Source of the DNA: Paenibacillus sp. Soil787
Lineage (GTDB): Bacteria > Bacillota > Bacilli > Paenibacillales > NBRC-103111
DNA: 64,000 bases
NCBI RefSeq assembly: GCF_001429545.1
Contig: NZ_LMSP01000001.1
Span: forward strand, 953,754-1,017,753
Reading direction: 5' to 3'
This document shows, piece after piece, positions 6,050-14,976 of the stretch. The notes under the pieces were generated by a model. It searched no databases and was not told where the DNA came from. It was given only the letters and a program-made list of their open reading frames with translations. The translations under genes and the position numbers were made by a program. Position 1 is the first letter of the stretch. Every line of letters starts with the position of its first letter.

Positions 6050-7933
6050 TTATAAAGGCACCACTTTGCGCCATGTGCGCAAAGCTGTTACATCTTCCGC
6101 GCTTGCGGCCGCGTAAGCTTCGCAAACGAAGCCCGGGACTTCCGTGCCGTCCCGGAGCTCAACCTTCCCGATCCCCAGCGGAGCTGGGATCGCAGCCGCA
6201 AAGCCGCCGAATGCTTCCAGCGGCATCTCCCACACCTCCAGCAGGATGGCTGCGCCGCCCTGCTGCTGCTTCACCAACCCCGGCTTCGCCGGCGTGGATG
6301 GCAGCTTCACCAGGCTGTACTTCGCTGCGGTCTCATCCTCCCGGATGAACCGCGCTCCACAGCCTAGCATTTGCTTCTCCAGCGGGTAGCCGCGCATGTG
6401 TAAGCCGCAGACCGCGACCAGCGTCGTCGGCGCCGCTGCCACGGCAACCTCATCCGCCGCCGAGCCTGCAGCACGCGGCGCGCTCGCCCCAGCAGCCGAT
6501 TCCAGTTCGGCGTCCACAGCACCCGCCACGAACTGCTCGGCTGCGCCGCAGATCAAGCTCTCTTCTTCAGCGAGCGCGAAGAACGTGATGCCAAAAGGTG
6601 TCTGCGGCGCCGCATCACCCGCAGGCACAGCAACACCGCACAAATCAAGCAGATTGCAATGATTCGTGTAGCGCCCCATATCCCGATTCGTGGCTATAGG
6701 GTCGGCCAGCACTTGCTCGCGCGTCCACGTCCCCCCGCAGGTAGGCATGACAAGCACGGCACCCTTCAGCAGTTTGCGAGCTTCCAGCTTGAACTGCTGC
6801 AGCTTATGCATCGCGTGGAATACGGATGCAGCATCGTACTCCGCAGCGGAGCCTGAACGGAGGATCTTTTCCGTGACGGGGTACGCGATGCCCGGATTCG
6901 CATCGATAAAGCTGCCCAAGGCCGCCCATCTTTCGGCCACCCATGGACCCTCATATAGAATTGCCGCCGCTTCGGCGAACAATGTAGCATCGATATATTC
7001 AACCGGGATGTTCAAATTAACACTTAATCCCTTCAATTTCTCAACAGCAGCGTCCCACGCAGCGCGGTACTCCGAAGCATAAGGACCATAAAAACCTAAT
7101 TCACCTTCAGGCAGAAAAACTTTGGCCGGAAGCTTAGCCGCTTCCCTAGTCACGCTGCGCGACCAAGGGTCATCTGCGTGAAGCCCGCGCACTACGCCGT
7201 CTACGGCGAGCGCGTCATCCAAGCTGTGCGCGAAGACTGTGATACAGTCTAAACTCGCACAGGCAGGTACTACACCTTTGGTTGGCCAGGCGCCGAGACT
7301 CGGCTTATAACCAACCAATCGGTTGAGCGCAGCAGGCACGCGGCCCGAGCCTGCTGTATCTGTGCCAAGCGAGAACGCCGCTTGCCCACGAGCTACCGAG
7401 ACGGCCGAGCCTGAGCTCGAGCCGCCGCTGATCAGTTCCGGGCGAAGCGCGTTATGCGCGTCGCCATAGGGACTTCTCGCGCCGACAAGCCCTGTCGCGA
7501 ACTGGTCCAAGTTCGTCTTGCCGACCGGAATCGCCCCTGCGGCAATCAATCTTTCCACTACGCCTGCATGCTCCGCTGGTGTATATGCATACTCCGCGCA
7601 GCCAGCCGTCGTCGGTACCCCAGCCAGATCAATGTTATCCTTGATCGCAAATGGAATCCCCCATAACGGCGCATCAGCCATAGAAACTGATTTTAATCTT
7701 TCCAGGTAAGGCTGAATGACATCCATCATCGGCGGTGTAATCCAAATATTCATAGTCTCATCGTTCGATGCGCGCTGCACAATAGCCGCTATCACTTCAT
7801 GCGGAGTTAATTCTTGTTTCTCGTACTTATCCCGCAGCCATGAGATACTTAATTCCTTAGCTATATTAATGCCGTTAATCTTCTCAATGTCCTCATTCTT
7901 TTCGATCTTTTCCACCTCATTAGCCTCAGTCAT
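6050..7933 (-). CDS. atzF: Allophanate hydrolase
   Basis: A 627-residue amidase-signature enzyme that hydrolyses allophanate to ammonia and CO2. Lys98 in FAIKDNIDLAG, the serine-rich GGSSSGSAVSV (residues 170-180) and Ser196 in GTDTAGSGRVPA form the Ser-cisSer-Lys triad. The region after about residue 500, starting near VCGLHMRGYPLEKQML, is the small C-terminal domain found in AtzF/DUR1,2 enzymes. It follows the carboxylase gene by 21 bases in the same operon and is the last step of the guanidine pathway. The segment encoding the 460-500 linker is alanine-rich and very GC-rich, which creates many long false frames on the plus strand. Confidence 0.93.
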   Translation of the reverse strand: MTEANEVEKIEKNEDIEKINGINIAKELSISWLRDKYEKQELTPHEVIAAIVQRASNDETMNIWITPPMMDVIQPYLERLKSVSMADAPLWGIPFAIKDNIDLAGVPTTAGCAEYAYTPAEHAGVVERLIAAGAIPVGKTNLDQFATGLVGARSPYGDAHNALRPELISGGSSSGSAVSVARGQAAFSLGTDTAGSGRVPAALNRLVGYKPSLGAWPTKGVVPACASLDCITVFAHSLDDALAVDGVVRGLHADDPWSRSVTREAAKLPAKVFLPEGELGFYGPYASEYRAAWDAAVEKLKGLSVNLNIPVEYIDATLFAEAAAILYEGPWVAERWAALGSFIDANPGIAYPVTEKILRSGSAAEYDAASVFHAMHKLQQFKLEARKLLKGAVLVMPTCGGTWTREQVLADPIATNRDMGRYTNHCNLLDLCGVAVPAGDAAPQTPFGITFFALAEEESLICGAAEQFVAGAVDAELESAAGASAPRAAGSAADEVAVAAAPTTLVAVCGLHMRGYPLEKQMLGCGARFIREDETAAKYSLVKLPSTPAKPGLVKQQQGGAAILLEVWEMPLEAFGGFAAAIPAPLGIGKVELRDGTEVPGFVCEAYAAASAEDVTALRTWRKVVPL

Positions 7934-7954
7934 TGATAAGACACCTCTCTCTCC

Positions 7955-10900
7955 TTAAGCAGATTGTGCAATACCGAGAATCAGCTGTCCGGCATGAACT
8001 TGATCCCCCGGCTTCACCTGAATCATCGAAACATACCCATCGCATGGCGCATGCTGCGGAAACTCCATTTTCATACTTTCGAGAATTGCCAGTTGATCGC
8101 CCTTCTTCACTTGTTCACCCGGAGATACAAGCACTTTCCAAACACTTCCCGGCATAATTCCGCGCACAGCAACAGTCCCCGCCGGCAATTCATCCTCTGG
8201 TGCCTCATTCACAGTTTCTTGTTCAGATACGTACTCAGCTAATCCCTTCGCCTTCCAGCTCTCCCGCTCCGCTTTAAAAGCATCCTGCTGCTGTTTACGG
8301 AATGTTTCCGCACTCTCTTCTATCGAACCTAGGAATTGCAAATATTCACCTAAGTCAAATGTCGTTTCCTGAATATCTGCTTCATACCGGCCCCGAGGGA
8401 AGTCTTCACGTAATTGCAGCAGCTCCTCTGCGCTGACCTCATAGAATTGGATTTGATCAAAGAACCTTAACAACCAAGGCTTACCCGCCTTAAAGCTTTC
8501 CGTAGAGCGAAGGCGATTCCACATTTGAATGGTACGTCCTACGAATTGATAACCTCCCGGACCTTCCATCCCATACACACACATGTAAGCACCGCCGATA
8601 CCAACGGCATTTTCCGGTGTCCATGTTCGTGCAGGGTTATATTTCGTTGTGACTAGACGATGACGCGGGTCGACAGGCGTGGCTACAGGAGCCCCCAAAT
8701 ACACGTCACCTAATCCAAGCACCAAATAATTAGCGTCATAAACAATCTTTTTAACATCATCAATTGTCTCTAAACCATTAATGCGTTGAATGAATTCCAG
8801 GTTACTAGGGCACCAAGGCGCATCTGGACGCACCCCTTGTCGATAACGCTGAATCGCCAGCTGTGTCGCGGGGTCATCCCAAGAAAGCGGCAATCGAACG
8901 ATACGTGAAGGTACGCGGAACTCTTCTAATGGAGGCAGCGCTGCATCAATCTCAACAATTTTCTTACACGCTTCACTTACCGTTATTTGTGAAGGATCGA
9001 TGTGAATTTGCAAGGAACGAATCCCTGGCGTTAAATCCAGCACCGGAATCGAGCCGCTTTTCACAATCGCTTGCATCAAAACCTGCACTTGGAACCGCAG
9101 CAGCAAATCTAACTCAAGCTCGCCATACTCAACAAGCAAGTTCTGATCTCCGCAGCAGCGGATCGTAATTGGAAATCTGCGATTAGCTGTTTCATGGAAA
9201 AGACGCGGATATTCCGGCGTAAGCTCTTCATTAACAGAAGGAAGCTGCCTAAGAACCAGCCGCCCGAAATCCCCCTCACCAATCGCACGCAAATTGCTTT
9301 CCTGCAGATCGCGCAAGGCTTCCGCTTCCGGAAGTGTTAGCAAATGGAATCGAATGGTATCACCCGGATGAAGCTGCCCCAGCTTCCAAAACTCAGCCGA
9401 AGCCGTCGTCACTGGACAGACGAAACCGCCAAGGCTCGGGCCGTCAGGTCCAAGCAGAATAGGCATATCCCCCGTCAAATCCAGCGTACCGACCGCATAC
9501 GCATTATCGTGAATATTGGATGGATGAAGCCCCGCTTCACCGCCATCTTCCCGCGTCCACAGCGGAGCAGGTCCTTTCAAACGAACCCCCGTCCTCGAGG
9601 AGTTAAAATGAACTTCCCAACTCGTTTCCGTCAATTGATCCAAGTATTCCGCGTGCAAAAACTCACCTGTACAATGAGGTCCAGGAATCACACCGATCGT
9701 CCACTCTCGCGTCATCACAGGACGATGCTCCAGAGCAAGCTCTGCCGCCTCTTGAACGGGACTTCCGCCTTCATTCACACCGAGCACATCTCCCGTACGC
9801 AGTGCTCGGCCGCCATGACCACCGAAACCGCCCAGCGTAAACGTGGATGAGCTGCCGAGAATTTTCGGCATATCCAAGCCGCCGCCAATCAGAAGATAAG
9901 TGCGCATACCTTCCTTGGCCTCGCCGAAGCTCAGCACTTGACCGCGAGCTGCCAACACCGGCCTATACGCTACAATAGCCGTTCCACCCAACTCCGCTTG
10001 CATATCTGCGCCAGTGACGCAGAACCACATGTCGCTGCGGAACTTATAAGAACCTCCGCGCAGTGTCATTTCCAATCCGCAGGCATCGTCAGCGTTACCG
10101 AGCAGCTTGTTTCCGATGCGGAACGATAGCGGATCCATCGGTCCGCAAGGGGGTACACCCACGTCCCAGTGGCGGATGCGCCCCGGGAAGTCCTGAACGG
10201 TGGTTTGAATCCCGCCGTCTACAACCTCCAGAGCCCGTTCCACTGGCTCGAACGTATTCAACAATTGCGTGAAGACGTTCCCGTCTACGCAATCTTTCTC
10301 TTGCAGAAGAGCCTGTAAATACTGCAGGTTCGTTGTAATACCGTACATGCGCGTTTCCGCCAACGCTTCGATCAATTTACGAATAGCGTCCAAACGGTCT
10401 GTACCGTGGACAATGATTTTAGCCAGCATCGGATCGTAAAGGGTTGTGACCGTAAGGCCATCCCGAACCCATGTCTCATTCCTTGCTTTATCAGAGAAGA
10501 CCGCCCGATCCAGCTGCCCTGCACTTGGACGGAACTGCTCAAGGCAGTCCTCCGCATAAATCCGCGCTTGAATGCTGTGCCCTACCGGCTTACGGATAAG
10601 CGATTGAATATTGGTAAGCTCATTAGCCGCTTCAAGCACCATCCACTCGACTAGGTCAATACCCAACACTTCTTCCGTCACACCGTGCTCAACCTGAAGT
10701 CTGGTATTGACCTCAAGGAAGTAAAACTCAAACGTCTCAGGATCATAAAGATATTCAACGGTACCCGCACTGCGATAGCCCACTTCCGCAGCAAGACGCT
10801 TCGCCGAAGCGAACATCGCCTCACGCACTTCATCCGACAAATTCGGAGCCGGACTTTCTTCAATAACCTTCTGGTTACGACGCTGAATGGAACAATCTCG

Positions 10901-11608
10901 CTCACCCAGCGTAACGACTTCCCCGAAGTCATTACCGAAAATTTGCACCTCAACGTGGCGCGCTCTCGCGATATATTTTTCAAGGAACATGCCGCCGTTT
11001 TTGAAATTCGTCTCTGCCAAATGGCGGACGCCGTCATAAGCGGCTCTTAATGTGGTCTCATCTGCGCAGACGCGCATCCCAATGCCGCCACCGCCTGCTG
11101 TGCTTTTGAGAATAACAGGGTAACCAATACGTGCAGCTTCAGCTAATGCCTCGTCCAGTTCCGTAATCAGCGGTGTTCCCGGCAGCATCGGTACGCCCGC
11201 TCTTTCAGCGATTTCCCGTGCAGAATGCTTGAGTCCGAACATTTCCATTTGCTCTGGCGTTGGTCCGATGAACACAATGCCATTTTCACGGCAAGCACGA
11301 GCGAAATCGGCATTTTCACTTAGAAAGCCGTAACCGGGATGTATCGCCTGCGCACCGGTTTCCAGCGCTGTTTTCAAAATCAGCTCTGTATTCAAATAGC
11401 TTTCCTTCGCCGGTCCCTCCCCGATCAGAACAGCTTCATCCGCACCATCCACATGTAAACTATCTTGATCTGCCCCTGTATAAACAGCAACGGACGCAAC
11501 CCCGAGCTTGCGTAAAGTACGCTCAATACGTACAGCGATAGCGCCACGATTAGCAATCAGCACTTTCGTAAACATCGTATCCACACCCCTCAGAATTTCG
11601 TAGACCAT
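7955..11608 (-). CDS. Biotin-dependent guanidine (urea-type) carboxylase
   Basis: A 1217-residue single-chain carboxylase. Domains in order: biotin carboxylase (MFTKVLIANRGAIAVR, a glycine-rich STAGGGGIGMR loop, EVNTRLQVEHGVTE); KipA-like and KipI-like carboxyltransferase halves (about 470-780 and 800-1090); and a biotin carrier domain with ESMKMEF, the biotinylated Lys being residue 1180. Such proteins were long named urea carboxylase. Members linked to DUF1989 genes and a ykkC guanidine-I riboswitch carboxylate guanidine in the published pathway, and that is exactly the context here. Two starts are plausible: ATG 11608 with AAGAGGAG, or ATG 11575 with GAGGGGTG, the latter matching the usual family N-terminus. 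The next gene upstream ends 24 bases before. Confidence 0.92.
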   Translation of the reverse strand: MVYEILRGVDTMFTKVLIANRGAIAVRIERTLRKLGVASVAVYTGADQDSLHVDGADEAVLIGEGPAKESYLNTELILKTALETGAQAIHPGYGFLSENADFARACRENGIVFIGPTPEQMEMFGLKHSAREIAERAGVPMLPGTPLITELDEALAEAARIGYPVILKSTAGGGGIGMRVCADETTLRAAYDGVRHLAETNFKNGGMFLEKYIARARHVEVQIFGNDFGEVVTLGERDCSIQRRNQKVIEESPAPNLSDEVREAMFASAKRLAAEVGYRSAGTVEYLYDPETFEFYFLEVNTRLQVEHGVTEEVLGIDLVEWMVLEAANELTNIQSLIRKPVGHSIQARIYAEDCLEQFRPSAGQLDRAVFSDKARNETWVRDGLTVTTLYDPMLAKIIVHGTDRLDAIRKLIEALAETRMYGITTNLQYLQALLQEKDCVDGNVFTQLLNTFEPVERALEVVDGGIQTTVQDFPGRIRHWDVGVPPCGPMDPLSFRIGNKLLGNADDACGLEMTLRGGSYKFRSDMWFCVTGADMQAELGGTAIVAYRPVLAARGQVLSFGEAKEGMRTYLLIGGGLDMPKILGSSSTFTLGGFGGHGGRALRTGDVLGVNEGGSPVQEAAELALEHRPVMTREWTIGVIPGPHCTGEFLHAEYLDQLTETSWEVHFNSSRTGVRLKGPAPLWTREDGGEAGLHPSNIHDNAYAVGTLDLTGDMPILLGPDGPSLGGFVCPVTTASAEFWKLGQLHPGDTIRFHLLTLPEAEALRDLQESNLRAIGEGDFGRLVLRQLPSVNEELTPEYPRLFHETANRRFPITIRCCGDQNLLVEYGELELDLLLRFQVQVLMQAIVKSGSIPVLDLTPGIRSLQIHIDPSQITVSEACKKIVEIDAALPPLEEFRVPSRIVRLPLSWDDPATQLAIQRYRQGVRPDAPWCPSNLEFIQRINGLETIDDVKKIVYDANYLVLGLGDVYLGAPVATPVDPRHRLVTTKYNPARTWTPENAVGIGGAYMCVYGMEGPGGYQFVGRTIQMWNRLRSTESFKAGKPWLLRFFDQIQFYEVSAEELLQLREDFPRGRYEADIQETTFDLGEYLQFLGSIEESAETFRKQQQDAFKAERESWKAKGLAEYVSEQETVNEAPEDELPAGTVAVRGIMPGSVWKVLVSPGEQVKKGDQLAILESMKMEFPQHAPCDGYVSMIQVKPGDQVHAGQLILGIAQSA

Positions 11609-11632
11609 CTATCTCCTCTTAAGCAAAGGAAC

Positions 11633-12286
11633 TTAATTCTCCCAAATAAGAACCTGAATCGGCGTCGGATTATAGGCATTACATGGATTATTAAGCTGCG
11701 GGCAGTTGCTGATAAGCACCATAGAGCTGCCTAGCGACTGAACCTCAACATAGCAGCCCGGAGCGGAAACGCCATCATCGAACTTCAGTCCACCATCTGG
11801 TGTGACAGGTACATTCATAAAGAAGTTAATATTCGGCGCCAAATCCCGCTTCGTATATGCTCCGCTTTCGTGCTGAGCAAGCTGCAGCATAAACGTATCT
11901 CGGCAATTATGCATCGATAGCTTATCGTGCGAGTAACGTACCGTGTTGCTTTGAGCCGAGCACGAACCCCCGACCGTATCATGGCGCCCGCAGGTGTCGG
12001 CTACGATTTCAAGCAATTCCTTACCGGATTCTGCCCGGAGGACAGAGCCGGTGCTGAGATAAATGTTGTTTTGACCTGCAATCGTCGCAACCGCACTATA
12101 ATGATCTTCCGGATTCTCTGCATCATAAAACAACGTGTCTGCCGCCTGGTTCCCTTCCAGATCAACAATGCGCAGCACTTGCCCTGGCTTCAAAACACGC
12201 ATCCAGCCGTCTCCCGCTTGAATAACTTCGCTATAGCTGGCATCCTCGACTTTACGAGGGCTTTCTACACGATTAAATACAGCCAT
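11633..12286 (-). CDS. DUF1989 protein, urea-carboxylase-associated protein 2 / carboxyguanidine deiminase subunit
   Basis: A 217-residue DUF1989 family protein. The family pattern is clear: [21 protein letters not shown], then [11 protein letters not shown] with conserved cysteine context, SMHNCRDTF, and [14 protein letters not shown]. Once annotated as urea amidolyase-associated protein 2, this family in riboswitch-controlled operons forms one subunit of carboxyguanidine deiminase. That enzyme converts carboxyguanidine to allophanate plus ammonia. It sits between the other DUF1989 gene (32 bases upstream) and the carboxylase (24 bases downstream), so it is an operon member. Which of the two paralogues is the A or B subunit I cannot tell from sequence. 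Confidence 0.9.
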
Positions 12287-12317
12287 TTCAGTTCCTCCTC
12301 AGCATTTTTCGCTTATT

Positions 12318-13037
12318 TCATAAGCCAAGTAGCGTGTGATATTCCCATGTATTTTCAAAAGCTCGGCGATTTTCCGGGCGGTAATTCAAGCAATAATCAT
12401 CTTCACCCACAGGCGATGCGGAAAGCACCTCCATTTTGACAGGTACAGATGGATACGTTGATCTTGGGTCTAGCGGGTTTGGCGTGTTTGATAAAACGAG
12501 CAAGGCATCTAATTCCGTACGCAGCGTAACCGTCGCTCTCTCAGGACAATGAGCAGCACTAAAATGCATATCCCCATTATCATCACAAGACACTTTGGAA
12601 AATAAATTCACAACCGGCATCATATCGCGCATGCTAAGGCCATTACGCACCAGCTCTACCGCGAAGTTCTCCTGCCCGCTCCGCAGCCATTCATTTCGCT
12701 GCTCTTGGAAATTCGTCGTCCCGTACTTGGCATCCGTAGCCGCACGGCTTGTGTATCCACTAAGCGGATCATGCCAACCGATACTGTCCTCCACAATGCT
12801 CACTAACGCTCGGCCATTGTCACTCATCAGAACGTTACCGCGTGTCAAATGGGCTGTATACTGGGCTTTCAGCGTATCCGGCATATTGTAGCGCTCCGTA
12901 AGATCCTGCGCGTGGAATACTTGTATAGACACATTCGCTCCCGCCTCCAGCGCCGTAAAACGAATCAACTTCCCTCTACCAATCGCTCCTGACCACTTGC
13001 CGCCCGGCCCTATTGTCTTGCTCCAAATGTTATCCAT
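12318..13037 (-). CDS. DUF1989 protein, urea-carboxylase-associated protein 1 / carboxyguanidine deiminase subunit
   Basis: The second DUF1989 paralogue, 239 residues from the chosen start. It contains LEAGANVSIQVFHAQDLTER, LVSIVEDSIGWHDPLSG, MMPVVNLFSKVSCDDNG and LDALLVLSNTPNPLDP. The frame is open back to an ATG at 13094, but that codon lies within the riboswitch terminator hairpin. The start at 13037 (MDNIWSKT) has AAAGGAG nine bases upstream and is preferred. It is the first gene of the guanidine operon and probably pairs with the downstream DUF1989 protein as a heteromeric deiminase. Confidence 0.9.
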   Translation of the reverse strand: MDNIWSKTIGPGGKWSGAIGRGKLIRFTALEAGANVSIQVFHAQDLTERYNMPDTLKAQYTAHLTRGNVLMSDNGRALVSIVEDSIGWHDPLSGYTSRAATDAKYGTTNFQEQRNEWLRSGQENFAVELVRNGLSMRDMMPVVNLFSKVSCDDNGDMHFSAAHCPERATVTLRTELDALLVLSNTPNPLDPRSTYPSVPVKMEVLSASPVGEDDYCLNYRPENRRAFENTWEYHTLLGL

Positions 13038-13065
13038 GCTACCCATCTCCTTTGCCATGTCGTTA

Positions 13066-13112
13066 AACAAAAAGGGAGACATCACAAGACTCATGTCTTG
13101 GTGATATCTCCC
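13066..13112 (-). terminator. Intrinsic terminator of the leftward guanidine-I riboswitch
   Basis: Read on the minus strand, GGGAGATATCACCAAGAC pairs across an ATGA loop with GTCTTGTGATGTCTCCC, with one mismatch and one offset, and is followed by TTTTTG. The 5' arm begins in the last bases of the aptamer. Ligand binding would compete with terminator formation, giving an ON switch. Confidence 0.88.
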
Positions 13113-13193
13113 AGGTTTTTATCCTTCCGTGGCGCTCTTAGGTAAGAGCGGTTTACTCTCGGACCAGCCCGGTCATGACCGGCGGAACCCTAG
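13100..13193 (-). promoter_or_regulatory. Guanidine-I (ykkC) riboswitch, leftward
   Basis: On the minus strand the conserved ykkC elements appear in order: CTAGGGTTCCG at the 5' end, a P1b-type arm CCGGTCATGACCGG, GCTGGTCCGAGAGTAAAC, a hairpin GCTCTTACCTAAGAGC, then CACGGAAGGATAAAAACCTG before the terminator. This matches the published guanidine-I aptamer consensus closely. It controls the carboxyguanidine deiminase, carboxylase and allophanate hydrolase operon. Confidence 0.93.
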
Positions 13194-13221
13194 TAAACAA
13201 TCGTATTCGTTTGTGTTACTA

Positions 13222-13250
13222 AACATAACATCGTTAATGGTATGTGTCAA
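13222..13250 (-). promoter_or_regulatory. SigA-type promoter for the leftward guanidine operon
   Basis: Reading leftward, a perfect -35 TTGACA (complement of 13245-13250) is followed after 17 bases by TATGTT (complement of 13222-13227). This lies about 30 bases before the first conserved base of the aptamer, as expected for a riboswitch transcript start. Confidence 0.65.
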
Positions 13251-13405
13251 TAAGTTCTAGATTTATTCCGTATTTTATCTAAAATACTTCTCACGCGCTT
13301 AACTTTGTGTTATATTAACTTACACATAAGGCTGATATCTAACACAAGCAAGTAAAATGCCACTTTCACCAATAGGTAAGTAATGATTCATCACATACAT
13401 GGTTT

Positions 13406-13500
13406 TCTAGGGTTCCGCGAGGGCATGACAGCCTCGGTCTGGACCAAGAGAAAACGCACAGCTAACCCTGTGTTCACGGAGGGATAAAAGCCCGGGAGGA
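13406..13500 (+). promoter_or_regulatory. Guanidine-I (ykkC) riboswitch, rightward
   Basis: The conserved order is CTAGGGTTCCGCG from 13407, a hairpin around GAGGGCATGACAGCCTC, GGTCTGGACCAAGAGAAAAC, a second hairpin CACAG-CTAACC-CTGTG, then CACGGAGGGATAAAAGCCCGGGAG. This is a close match to the guanidine-I consensus, including the 3' GGGA-AAAGCCCGG block. It is followed directly by a terminator and an APC-type permease. Confidence 0.95.
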
Positions 13501-13534
13501 TATCTGTTTCATAGATATCTCCTTGGCTTTTTTG
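13487..13534 (+). terminator. Intrinsic terminator of the rightward guanidine-I riboswitch
   Basis: AGCC-CG-GGAGGATATCT pairs with AGATATCTCC-TT-GGCT across GTTTCAT and is followed by TTTTTT. The 5' arm is made of the conserved 3' end of the aptamer, so guanidine binding should prevent termination. Confidence 0.92.
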
Positions 13535-13585
13535 CATATACGCCCCTGTATGATCAACGGCAAACAATGATAAGGGAGTGTCACT

Positions 13586-14935
13586 ATGAAAACAGAAGTT
13601 ACTTTACGCCAATCTTTAAACCTATCCCAAGTCGTTTACATGGGGCTTGCATGGATGACGCCTATGATTTATTTCTCCATCTATGGCATTGCTTATGAGA
13701 ATGCGCATGGCATGCTGACGCAAGCTTACCTGCTTGCTTTCATTGCCATCTTTTTCACCGCGTACAGCTATGGCGTTATGTCCAAATCTTTTCCCACATC
13801 AGGCTCCGCTTACACCTATACGAAGAAAAGCATCCATCCCTACTTAGGCTTCCTGGTCGGCTGGGCGCTGCTCCTTGACTACTTTTTCTCCCCCATCATT
13901 GCCTGCCTCACCTTCGGCATCTATCTTCACGCCCAGTTCCCGTCCATTCCGGCTTATGTCTGGATCATCGGGCTCAATATCGTCCTCGGAATCGTAAATA
14001 TTATTGGCATTAAGTTTTCTGCAAATATCAGCAAGCTGTTCGTTTGGATTCAGATTCTTTTTATAGCGGTCTTCTGTTTCTTCCTTTTCCGAAATATCAC
14101 CGGAGATGTTCATCCGCTGCAGCCATTCCTGCAAACCGAAGTACCCTTCTCCACCATTCTTGCCGGAGCTTCGATGATCTGCTTCTCCTTTCTAGGCTTT
14201 GACACGATCACGACCATGTCCGAAGAAACCAAAAACTCCGAGAAAACGATCCCTCGGGCCATCATGATCATCATCATTACAGCCAGTATCCTGTATCTGG
14301 TGCCGTCTTTCCTGACACAGCTGGTTTATCCACAGCTAACCTTCGTCGATATGGATTCGGCTGGTTTCGAGATCGTGAAGCTCGTCGGCGGAGCCGCACT
14401 TAGCTCTGTGTTCATCACCGTACTTATACTCGCCATTTTTACCCAAGGCTTATCATCGGTAACTAGCGTTTCTCGTCTCCTCTTTGTGATGGGGCGCGAT
14501 TCCGTTCTCCCTAAACGGGTGTTCGGTTCCCTGCATCCTAAGTTCAACACACCCGTCACTAACATTGTGATCGTCAGCGTCGTCTCTCTGCTCGCTCTGG
14601 TTATATCGCTAGACAATGCTGTGAAATTCGTGAATTTCGGGGCATTGACGGCCTTCTTCTTTGTAAATATCTCCGTTATCGCTCAAAAATACATCAAAGA
14701 TAAGCAGCGCTCGCCGAAGATGACGTTCCTCTATCTCATTATGCCGTTGATCGGAGCCTGTTTCATTGGCTATCTGCTGTCTTTGCTCGACAAAGATGCC
14801 CTATGGATGGGAGGCGTATGGCTCCTCGCGGGCATTGTGTATCATTTGATGCGAAAGCGTTCGGTTCGATTGCTATCGGCGTCGAAAAGACCAATCATCA
14901 CTGGCAGTGGCAGTCCTTCTGGGTCTTTGGAATAG
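13586..14935 (+). CDS. APC-superfamily permease, probable guanidine (or guanidino compound) importer
   Basis: A 449-residue integral membrane protein with about twelve hydrophobic segments. APC-family landmarks are present: LNLSQVVYMGLAWMTP in helix 1, SFPTSGSAYTYTKKSIHPYLGFLVGWALLLDY in helices 2-3, and FLGFDTITTMSEETKNSEKTIPRAI. It resembles putrescine/amino-acid permeases of the PuuP group. The start has a GGGAGTG site. Its only visible control is the guanidine-I riboswitch, so uptake of guanidine or a guanidine precursor is a reasonable inference; the family alone would suggest an amino acid or polyamine. Export is less likely because known exporters of this regulon are SMR or MATE proteins. 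Confidence 0.85.
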   Translation: MKTEVTLRQSLNLSQVVYMGLAWMTPMIYFSIYGIAYENAHGMLTQAYLLAFIAIFFTAYSYGVMSKSFPTSGSAYTYTKKSIHPYLGFLVGWALLLDYFFSPIIACLTFGIYLHAQFPSIPAYVWIIGLNIVLGIVNIIGIKFSANISKLFVWIQILFIAVFCFFLFRNITGDVHPLQPFLQTEVPFSTILAGASMICFSFLGFDTITTMSEETKNSEKTIPRAIMIIIITASILYLVPSFLTQLVYPQLTFVDMDSAGFEIVKLVGGAALSSVFITVLILAIFTQGLSSVTSVSRLLFVMGRDSVLPKRVFGSLHPKFNTPVTNIVIVSVVSLLALVISLDNAVKFVNFGALTAFFFVNISVIAQKYIKDKQRSPKMTFLYLIMPLIGACFIGYLLSLLDKDALWMGGVWLLAGIVYHLMRKRSVRLLSASKRPIITGSGSPSGSLE

Positions 14936-14945
14936 AACGAGAAAA

Positions 14946-14976
14946 ACCGCCAGGAATCATCCTGACGGTCCTTTTT
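14946..14976 (+). terminator. Rho-independent terminator after the permease
   Basis: ACCGCCAGGA pairs with TCCTGACGGT across ATCA, followed by CCTTTTT. It is ten bases after the permease stop. Confidence 0.8.

Follow-up and report, generated by a model that had tools for sequence, protein, structure and literature searches.

The 64,000-nucleotide stretch of Paenibacillus sp. Soil787 analysed here (contig NZ_LMSP01000001.1; hereafter the window, whose own numbering is used) contains between positions 6050 and 14935 two divergent transcription units, each preceded by a guanidine-I riboswitch aptamer. The leftward unit encodes two DUF1989 proteins, a guanidine carboxylase and an allophanate hydrolase, and the rightward one a PuuP-like permease of the APC type. 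Two perfect matches to the GlnR/TnrA box, TGTNAN7TNACA, lie between the aptamers, and we consider it rather probable that the whole is a nitrogen-gated locus of guanidine assimilation, in which guanidine and nitrogen shortage are needed in series.

Search of the window with the covariance model RF00442 (Guanidine-I, curated cutoff of 63 bits) yields exactly two matches at the gathering threshold, both full length and arranged head to head. The aptamer on the enzyme side occupies positions 13106–13204 of the minus strand (89.4 bits, E-value 9.8e-15) and that on the permease side positions 13396–13500 of the plus strand (84.9 bits, E-value 1e-13), which bears out the two back-to-back aptamers noticed from the letters alone in the original prediction. 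Both leaders fold better than all of 200 shuffled sequences (z of −3.64 for the plus and −5.02 for the minus strand). The terminator of the enzyme-side leader (13069–13112, minus strand) is a hairpin from 13112 to 13074 of −25.5 kcal/mol followed by a U tract, and the 3' part of this leader (13122–13064) folds into the terminator with −27.4 kcal/mol and a z of −6.80. The terminator of the permease-side leader is located at 13486–13531 of the plus strand, where the segment 13484–13534 folds with −23.3 kcal/mol (z of −5.48). Both incorporate the GGGAG 3' end of the aptamer and continue into U tracts, in agreement with the earlier claim that the terminators are built from aptamer 3' ends. Because this end is shared, bound aptamer and terminator are predicted to be mutually exclusive, and both aptamers probably bind guanidine and would relieve termination upon binding.

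The permease-side aptamer carries GGACCAAGAG where the consensus has GGUCCGAGAG. An altered ligand was considered and rejected, since such variants are widespread and give no sign of a new ligand: the common form occurs in 13 of 33 permease-side aptamers, GGACCAAGAG in 11, GGTCCAAGAG in seven and GGACCGAGAG in two, and GGTCCAAGAG is present in 23 of 28 ABC leaders. Antisense action between the leaders was also rejected, because they diverge without overlap. The genome as a whole has four guanidine-I sites above the cutoff, namely the two described here, one in front of an ABC importer operon (binding protein, permease and ATPase) and one in front of an SMR gene. A fifth match (L005), at 37.7 bits and hence below the cutoff, precedes an ABC ATPase gene.

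The gap of 191 bp between the two aptamers contains both GlnR/TnrA boxes, neither of which is assigned a strand or features in the original prediction. The first, TGTTACTAAACATAACA, is located at 13214–13230 and overlies the −10 element of a predicted leftward promoter (TTGACA-17-TATGTT; 13222–13250, minus strand). The second, TGTTATATTAACTTACA, is located at 13308–13324 and overlies the −10 element of a predicted rightward promoter (TTCTCA-17-TATATT; 13288–13316, plus strand). Both boxes are kept in relatives, and among the aligned ones the −35 elements and spacing are conserved too, including the −35 of the leftward promoter and the CTTCTCA of the rightward one with its spacing. Of 25 loci of the genus (L035–L059), 23 have the two boxes at a distance of 94 bp and the remaining two at 95 bp, and this holds even in those loci whose permease aptamer has shifted relative to the boxes (L054, L055 and L058). 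A TnrA-like activator site in front of a TAAAAT −10 element of the permease gene was considered and rejected; that stretch is unconserved, whereas CTTCTCA and the box spacing are conserved.

The distribution of the box among guanidine-I leaders gives the nitrogen gate its main support. A strict TGTNAN7TNACA match within 300 bp upstream of the aptamer was scored in a large sample of the family, which is not a census (129 sites were parsed and further ones added by coordinates, while one collected region, L072, was left aside), and the following counts refer to the sites listed in it. The box is present before 33 of 33 permease leaders, 31 of 31 leaders of deiminase-carboxylase operons and 32 of 32 leaders of ABC importers, so that all 96 of 96 assimilatory leaders carry it, as opposed to one of 45 leaders of SMR exporters. 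It is also found before three of three chemotaxis receptors and the single isochorismatase-like gene, and is absent from the four leaders with other or no gene behind them and from the weak match L005. Dinucleotide shuffles gave on average 0.3 boxes in 33 permease, 0.35 in 30 deiminase, 0.3 in 28 ABC and 0.1 in 30 SMR leaders, or about 1% or less. The reversed pattern was found in none of the groups compared, and half-site spacings of 5, 6, 8 or 9 gave zero to two matches per group. A naive Fisher test of the contrast, which ignores kinship, gives p = 6e-36.

Two of the boxed groups deserve description. In three genomes (L012, L016 and L021, in G043, G032 and G041) a guanidine-I aptamer at position 1501 of the locus, with a GlnR box 18–19 bp upstream, stands directly before a gene for a methyl-accepting chemotaxis protein, whose product in L016, the only one searched with Pfam, has 4HB sensor, HAMP and MCPsignal domains; the product is possibly a riboswitch-controlled guanidine chemoreceptor. 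In L108 (G018:C1:5306526) the aptamer and two GlnR boxes precede a gene for an isochorismatase-family-like hydrolase, which was named by eye.

The permease gene is located at 13586–14935 of the plus strand. As originally predicted, its product is an APC-type protein (449 residues; Pfam AA_permease) and lies outside the known exporter types, being no small four-helix SMR exporter of the Gdx kind. It is 43% identical to E. coli PuuP over 444 columns and 39% identical to PlaP. The family model TIGR03428 ("permease, urea carboxylase system") was tried and rejected, as the permease reaches 66 bits where 740 are required. A structural model with a pLDDT of 86.8 and a pTM of 0.84 has a fold at a TM-score of about 0.8 to both 6f34 and AdiC (5j4n); the former, a bacterial cationic amino acid carrier, is the best solved relative by sequence and fold. 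Among the 85 rows of a maximum-likelihood tree, from which the Nitrospira permease discussed below was left out, 62 including the window permease form a clade with support of 100/99, separate from PuuP. By labels that we assigned ourselves, 59 of the 62 clade rows are linked to guanidine, through guanidine-I or pathway genes, versus none of 19 collected loci outside. The three clade rows without this link are L237 and L238, which have GlnR boxes and no guanidine-I by Rfam, and L270, which has neither. The boxes of L237 (Paenibacillus sp. OV219) and L238 (P. taihuensis) are two in each case and lie 77–94 bp upstream of the clade permease. One further join in the tree, between APC2_L141 and L298, is unsafe according to the warning of the tree tool. 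Of the 61 named clade loci, 57 have a box within 600 bp upstream, as against none of the 19 others.

Nine residues, I28, A106, F110, C164, A233, L272, Q287, V349 and L400, are conserved within the clade and seldom occur elsewhere. Among them, I28, A106, F110 and Q287 stand where PuuP has T, N, A and S; the position of Q287 is S in 22 of 22 outgroup rows. I28 falls on the second glycine of the GTG motif in the first transmembrane helix (TM1), according to the alignment to 6f34, which was used for this helix because that of AdiC looked misaligned. A106, F110 and Q287 map onto the substrate-holding helices of AdiC. It is possible that these clade residues set specificity.

The permease probably imports guanidine, a proposal supported by the kinship to PuuP, the guanidine-linked clade and a box that is common to assimilation genes and absent from nearly all exporters. 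The importer candidacy put forward originally is thereby upheld as a reading of the sequence, but it is not new, since the main text of PMC11410670 already predicts an APC importer of guanidine. It is unlikely, though worth serious attention, that the protein instead carries another substrate, such as a polyamine, an amino acid, methylguanidine or agmatine, or that it exports or exchanges guanidine. The closest characterised relatives that we found transport putrescine, the best solved ones are amino acid carriers, and the ABC importer behind guanidine-I in the same genome means that an APC importer is not strictly required. Against this stands the genomic setting. Among 104 genomes of the family, 34 permease matches of at least 57% identity occur, one per genome, and 33 of them (all except that of G067) follow directly after a guanidine-I aptamer. 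The permease stands ahead of the deiminase, carboxylase and hydrolase genes, in the same direction, in 24 of 80 named loci, and the box tracks assimilation, not export. TM1 is also without the glycine motif found in amino acid carriers, and the clade-specific A106, F110 and Q287 differ from PuuP. A paralogue in the same genome (L071, 1293–2672, contig C7), 52% identical to the permease, falls outside the guanidine clade and adjoins ABC transporter genes.

Import of guanidine by the permease would be joined to nitrogen control through GlnR. The genome encodes a GlnR-like protein of 139 residues, called so by gene order and by eye. Its frame precedes glnA and is itself preceded by a box (L079), although 10 of 200 shuffles contained a box too. 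A second glnA likewise has a box (L078), which 23 of 200 shuffles matched. The GlnR of P. polymyxa is described in the main text of PMC9948412 as filling the roles of both GlnR and TnrA at the TGTNAN7TNACA consensus, and this text and the available text of PMC6191146 report that Paenibacillus GlnR both represses and activates. The two boxes between the aptamers are good candidates for GlnR regulon sites, at which GlnR would bind and, when nitrogen is ample, presumably repress.

Several observations weigh against the nitrogen gate. The promoter scan of the region found two promoters against 1.6 expected and hence no excess by count. The window has four boxes against 0.78 expected, but across the genome there are 146 against 154 of the reversed pattern, so that a lone box means little; given this lack of enrichment, the case rests on conservation. 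The counts behind the contrast are not independent, because head-to-head loci share one intergenic region between permease and deiminase leaders and because the species are related. Four of the 61 named clade loci have no box, although one of them (L249) shows only 201 bp of upstream sequence. In a class-wide sample (30 loci, plus 40 picked from the same list) the association is looser: a separate APC lineage has the box in five of six leaders (L140–L143 and L145 with, L155 without), and the one ABC leader and the one weak APC match (L160) are without it. Lastly, the word guanidine is absent from the main text of the P. polymyxa GlnR paper (PMC9948412). In the same class-wide sample none of 53 SMR leaders and three of three deiminase-led ones carry the box; five other leaders were scored as without it, and L209 has one 294 bp upstream. 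Most families in this sample are only distantly related, and their nitrogen control may be of another kind.

These points bear on the alternative that another regulator binds the boxes, or that the nitrogen effect is marginal and the locus answers to guanidine alone. We regard this as improbable. The boxes are matches to a consensus that shows no genomic enrichment, and other MerR-type proteins may use the same site. Against the alternative stand the box in every assimilatory leader of the family sample and in just one exporter leader, the near absence of other half-site spacings, and the 94 bp kept between the boxes in 23 of 25 loci of the genus. Two observations from the class-wide sample stand apart. 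The leaders of L174 and L209 (in G265 and G341) precede a gene for a membrane protein of about 280 residues. The separate APC lineage after guanidine-I comprises L140–L143, L145, L155 and L216, and in G181 deiminase and carboxylase genes come after it; the combination of guanidine-I, GlnR box and APC permease may have arisen more than once.

All four genes of the leftward operon lie on the minus strand, and their products score above the cutoffs of their family models, as expected from the original prediction of two DUF1989 proteins, a biotin carboxylase and an allophanate hydrolase. The first DUF1989 protein, UAAP1 (12318–13037), reaches 291.4 bits with TIGR03425 (cutoff of 206) and the second, UAAP2 (11633–12286), 301.5 bits with TIGR03424 (cutoff of 284.7). 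Both also match PF09347, a tree of which is the published criterion for CgdAB, and are proposed as the subunits of carboxyguanidine deiminase; we take UAAP1 and UAAP2 to correspond to CgdA and CgdB. The UAAP1 frame is open from 13094, where its first ATG falls within the terminator, and the ATG at 13037 after AAAGGAG, read by eye, is the likelier start. The guanidine carboxylase (7955–11608; TIGR02712, 1729 bits, cutoff of 1304) has 1217 residues and combines biotin carboxylase, carboxyltransferase and biotin carrier on a single chain, and the allophanate hydrolase (6050–7933) is recognised by TIGR02713 (611 bits, cutoff of 511) and the Pfam domains Amidase and AH_C. According to the main text of PMC11410670, the enzyme must have aspartate at the sites equivalent to K. 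lactis 1584 and 1330, the latter telling guanidine carboxylase from urea carboxylase. In the alignment to K. lactis 5i8i, with positions counted by hand, D710 aligns with yeast N1330 and D968 with D1584, and the presence of both aspartates therefore supports the published guanidine carboxylase pathway, as had been claimed. Degradation of urea in place of guanidine, suggested by the names of TIGR02712 ("urea carboxylase") and of TIGR03424 and TIGR03425 (urea amidolyase associated proteins), is very improbable, as D710 makes the enzyme a guanidine carboxylase by the published rule, both aspartates speak against the urea carboxylase reading, which was rejected on them, and both leaders are guanidine-I.

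In the mechanism that we propose, the permease, probably coupled to protons, would import guanidinium. The carboxylase would convert guanidine to carboxyguanidine, the two DUF1989 proteins would deiminate this to allophanate, and allophanate hydrolase would release ammonia. When nitrogen is ample, GlnR, which is tied to glutamine synthetase, would shut both divergent promoters through the boxes over their −10 elements; under nitrogen shortage both would be freed or activated and transcription would initiate. Each leader would then terminate unless a guanidine-bound aptamer withholds its 3' end from the terminator, giving a combined response to guanidine and nitrogen, and uptake of guanidine would feed back on both riboswitches. 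The SMR exporters of the family, with a riboswitch and no box, would respond to guanidine alone. A single riboswitch class thus appears to work under two regimes, in which import and use call for guanidine together with nitrogen shortage, and export for guanidine alone.

A broader proposal is made only tentatively, and we hold it to be somewhat doubtful. The Paenibacillaceae, and the Bacillaceae with the same permease, might split their guanidine-I regulon by nitrogen, with the chemoreceptor of three genomes on the nitrogen side, and the pair of GlnR sites might act reciprocally, each repressing its own promoter and activating the opposite one. Reciprocal action is suggested because each box covers its own −10 element and stands 57 nt ahead of the opposite promoter's −35 element, close to the 58 bp by which an activator site of the P. 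polymyxa nif genes precedes its −35 element in the available text of PMC6191146.

The double riboswitch is one among several arrangements. A second, outward-facing guanidine-I is present in 28 of the 33 permease loci of the family (including L053), and the gene behind it is a deiminase in 27 of these and an ABC binding protein in one (L060). The closest named permeases, 94–95% identical, are those of Paenibacillus sp. V4I3, Paenibacillus sp. Root444D2 and P. phytorum. In 13 of the 80 named loci a riboswitch is left on the enzyme side only, with which Rfam agrees in all six that were tested; in each of the 13, one or more boxes lie in the 600 bp ahead of the permease, at 60–73 bp in nine. As these 13 permeases keep the box without a riboswitch of their own, nitrogen control of the permease appears to outlast the riboswitch. 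In Terrilactibacillus tamarindi (L255, 3965–5966) matches to a group II intron lie between the guanidine-I aptamer and the permease, and a second guanidine-I sits between the permease and deiminase genes.

Guanidine riboswitches govern both detoxification and nutrient genes. If the nitrogen gate is true, the cell sorts the two roles by placing the same RNA sensor under a nitrogen regulator for use and leaving it alone for export, which would offer a simple genomic test of whether uncharacterised transporters behind guanidine riboswitches import or export. A clade of permeases is also identified where the existence of a guanidine importer independent of ATP could be demonstrated.

Earlier publications already cover the pathway, the riboswitch and the prediction of an APC importer for guanidine; a nitrogen gate did not turn up in the literature searched. 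Among the matches listed, titles and abstract openings of open-licence literature contained neither nitrogen control of guanidine-riboswitch genes nor a PuuP-type guanidine importer. According to the available text of PMC12186494 and PMC12508155, the carboxylase operons of Raoultella, Klebsiella and Vreelandella boliviensis have the same enzymes under riboswitch control (guanidine-I or -II). They differ from the locus described here in having an ABC importer within the operon, where the window has a divergent PuuP-like permease with its own riboswitch, and the GlnR boxes before both transcription units are a feature of the present locus. The main text of PMC11410670, which has no occurrence of GlnR, NtrC or nitrogen limitation, describes guanidine-I with an APC permease and a guanidinase in comammox Nitrospira, with import predicted to proceed without ATP, and an APC permease, a predicted guanidine importer, alongside the carboxylase pathway in ammonia-oxidising bacteria. 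PuuP and PlaP are putrescine:H+ symporters of E. coli, to which the window permease is related over nearly its full length, although it belongs to a separate, guanidine-linked clade. The Paenibacillus GlnR regulon uses the same consensus box, here stacked on a riboswitch, and no guanidine gene is named for it in the main text of PMC9948412 or the available text of PMC6191146. A riboswitch beneath global regulators is likewise found in the branched-chain amino acid operons with T-box and "guanidine" riboswitches, where TnrA and CodY act on ilv-leu in the available text of PMC12452182; unlike the locus described here, these operons are biosynthetic, have tandem leaders and involve no use of guanidine.

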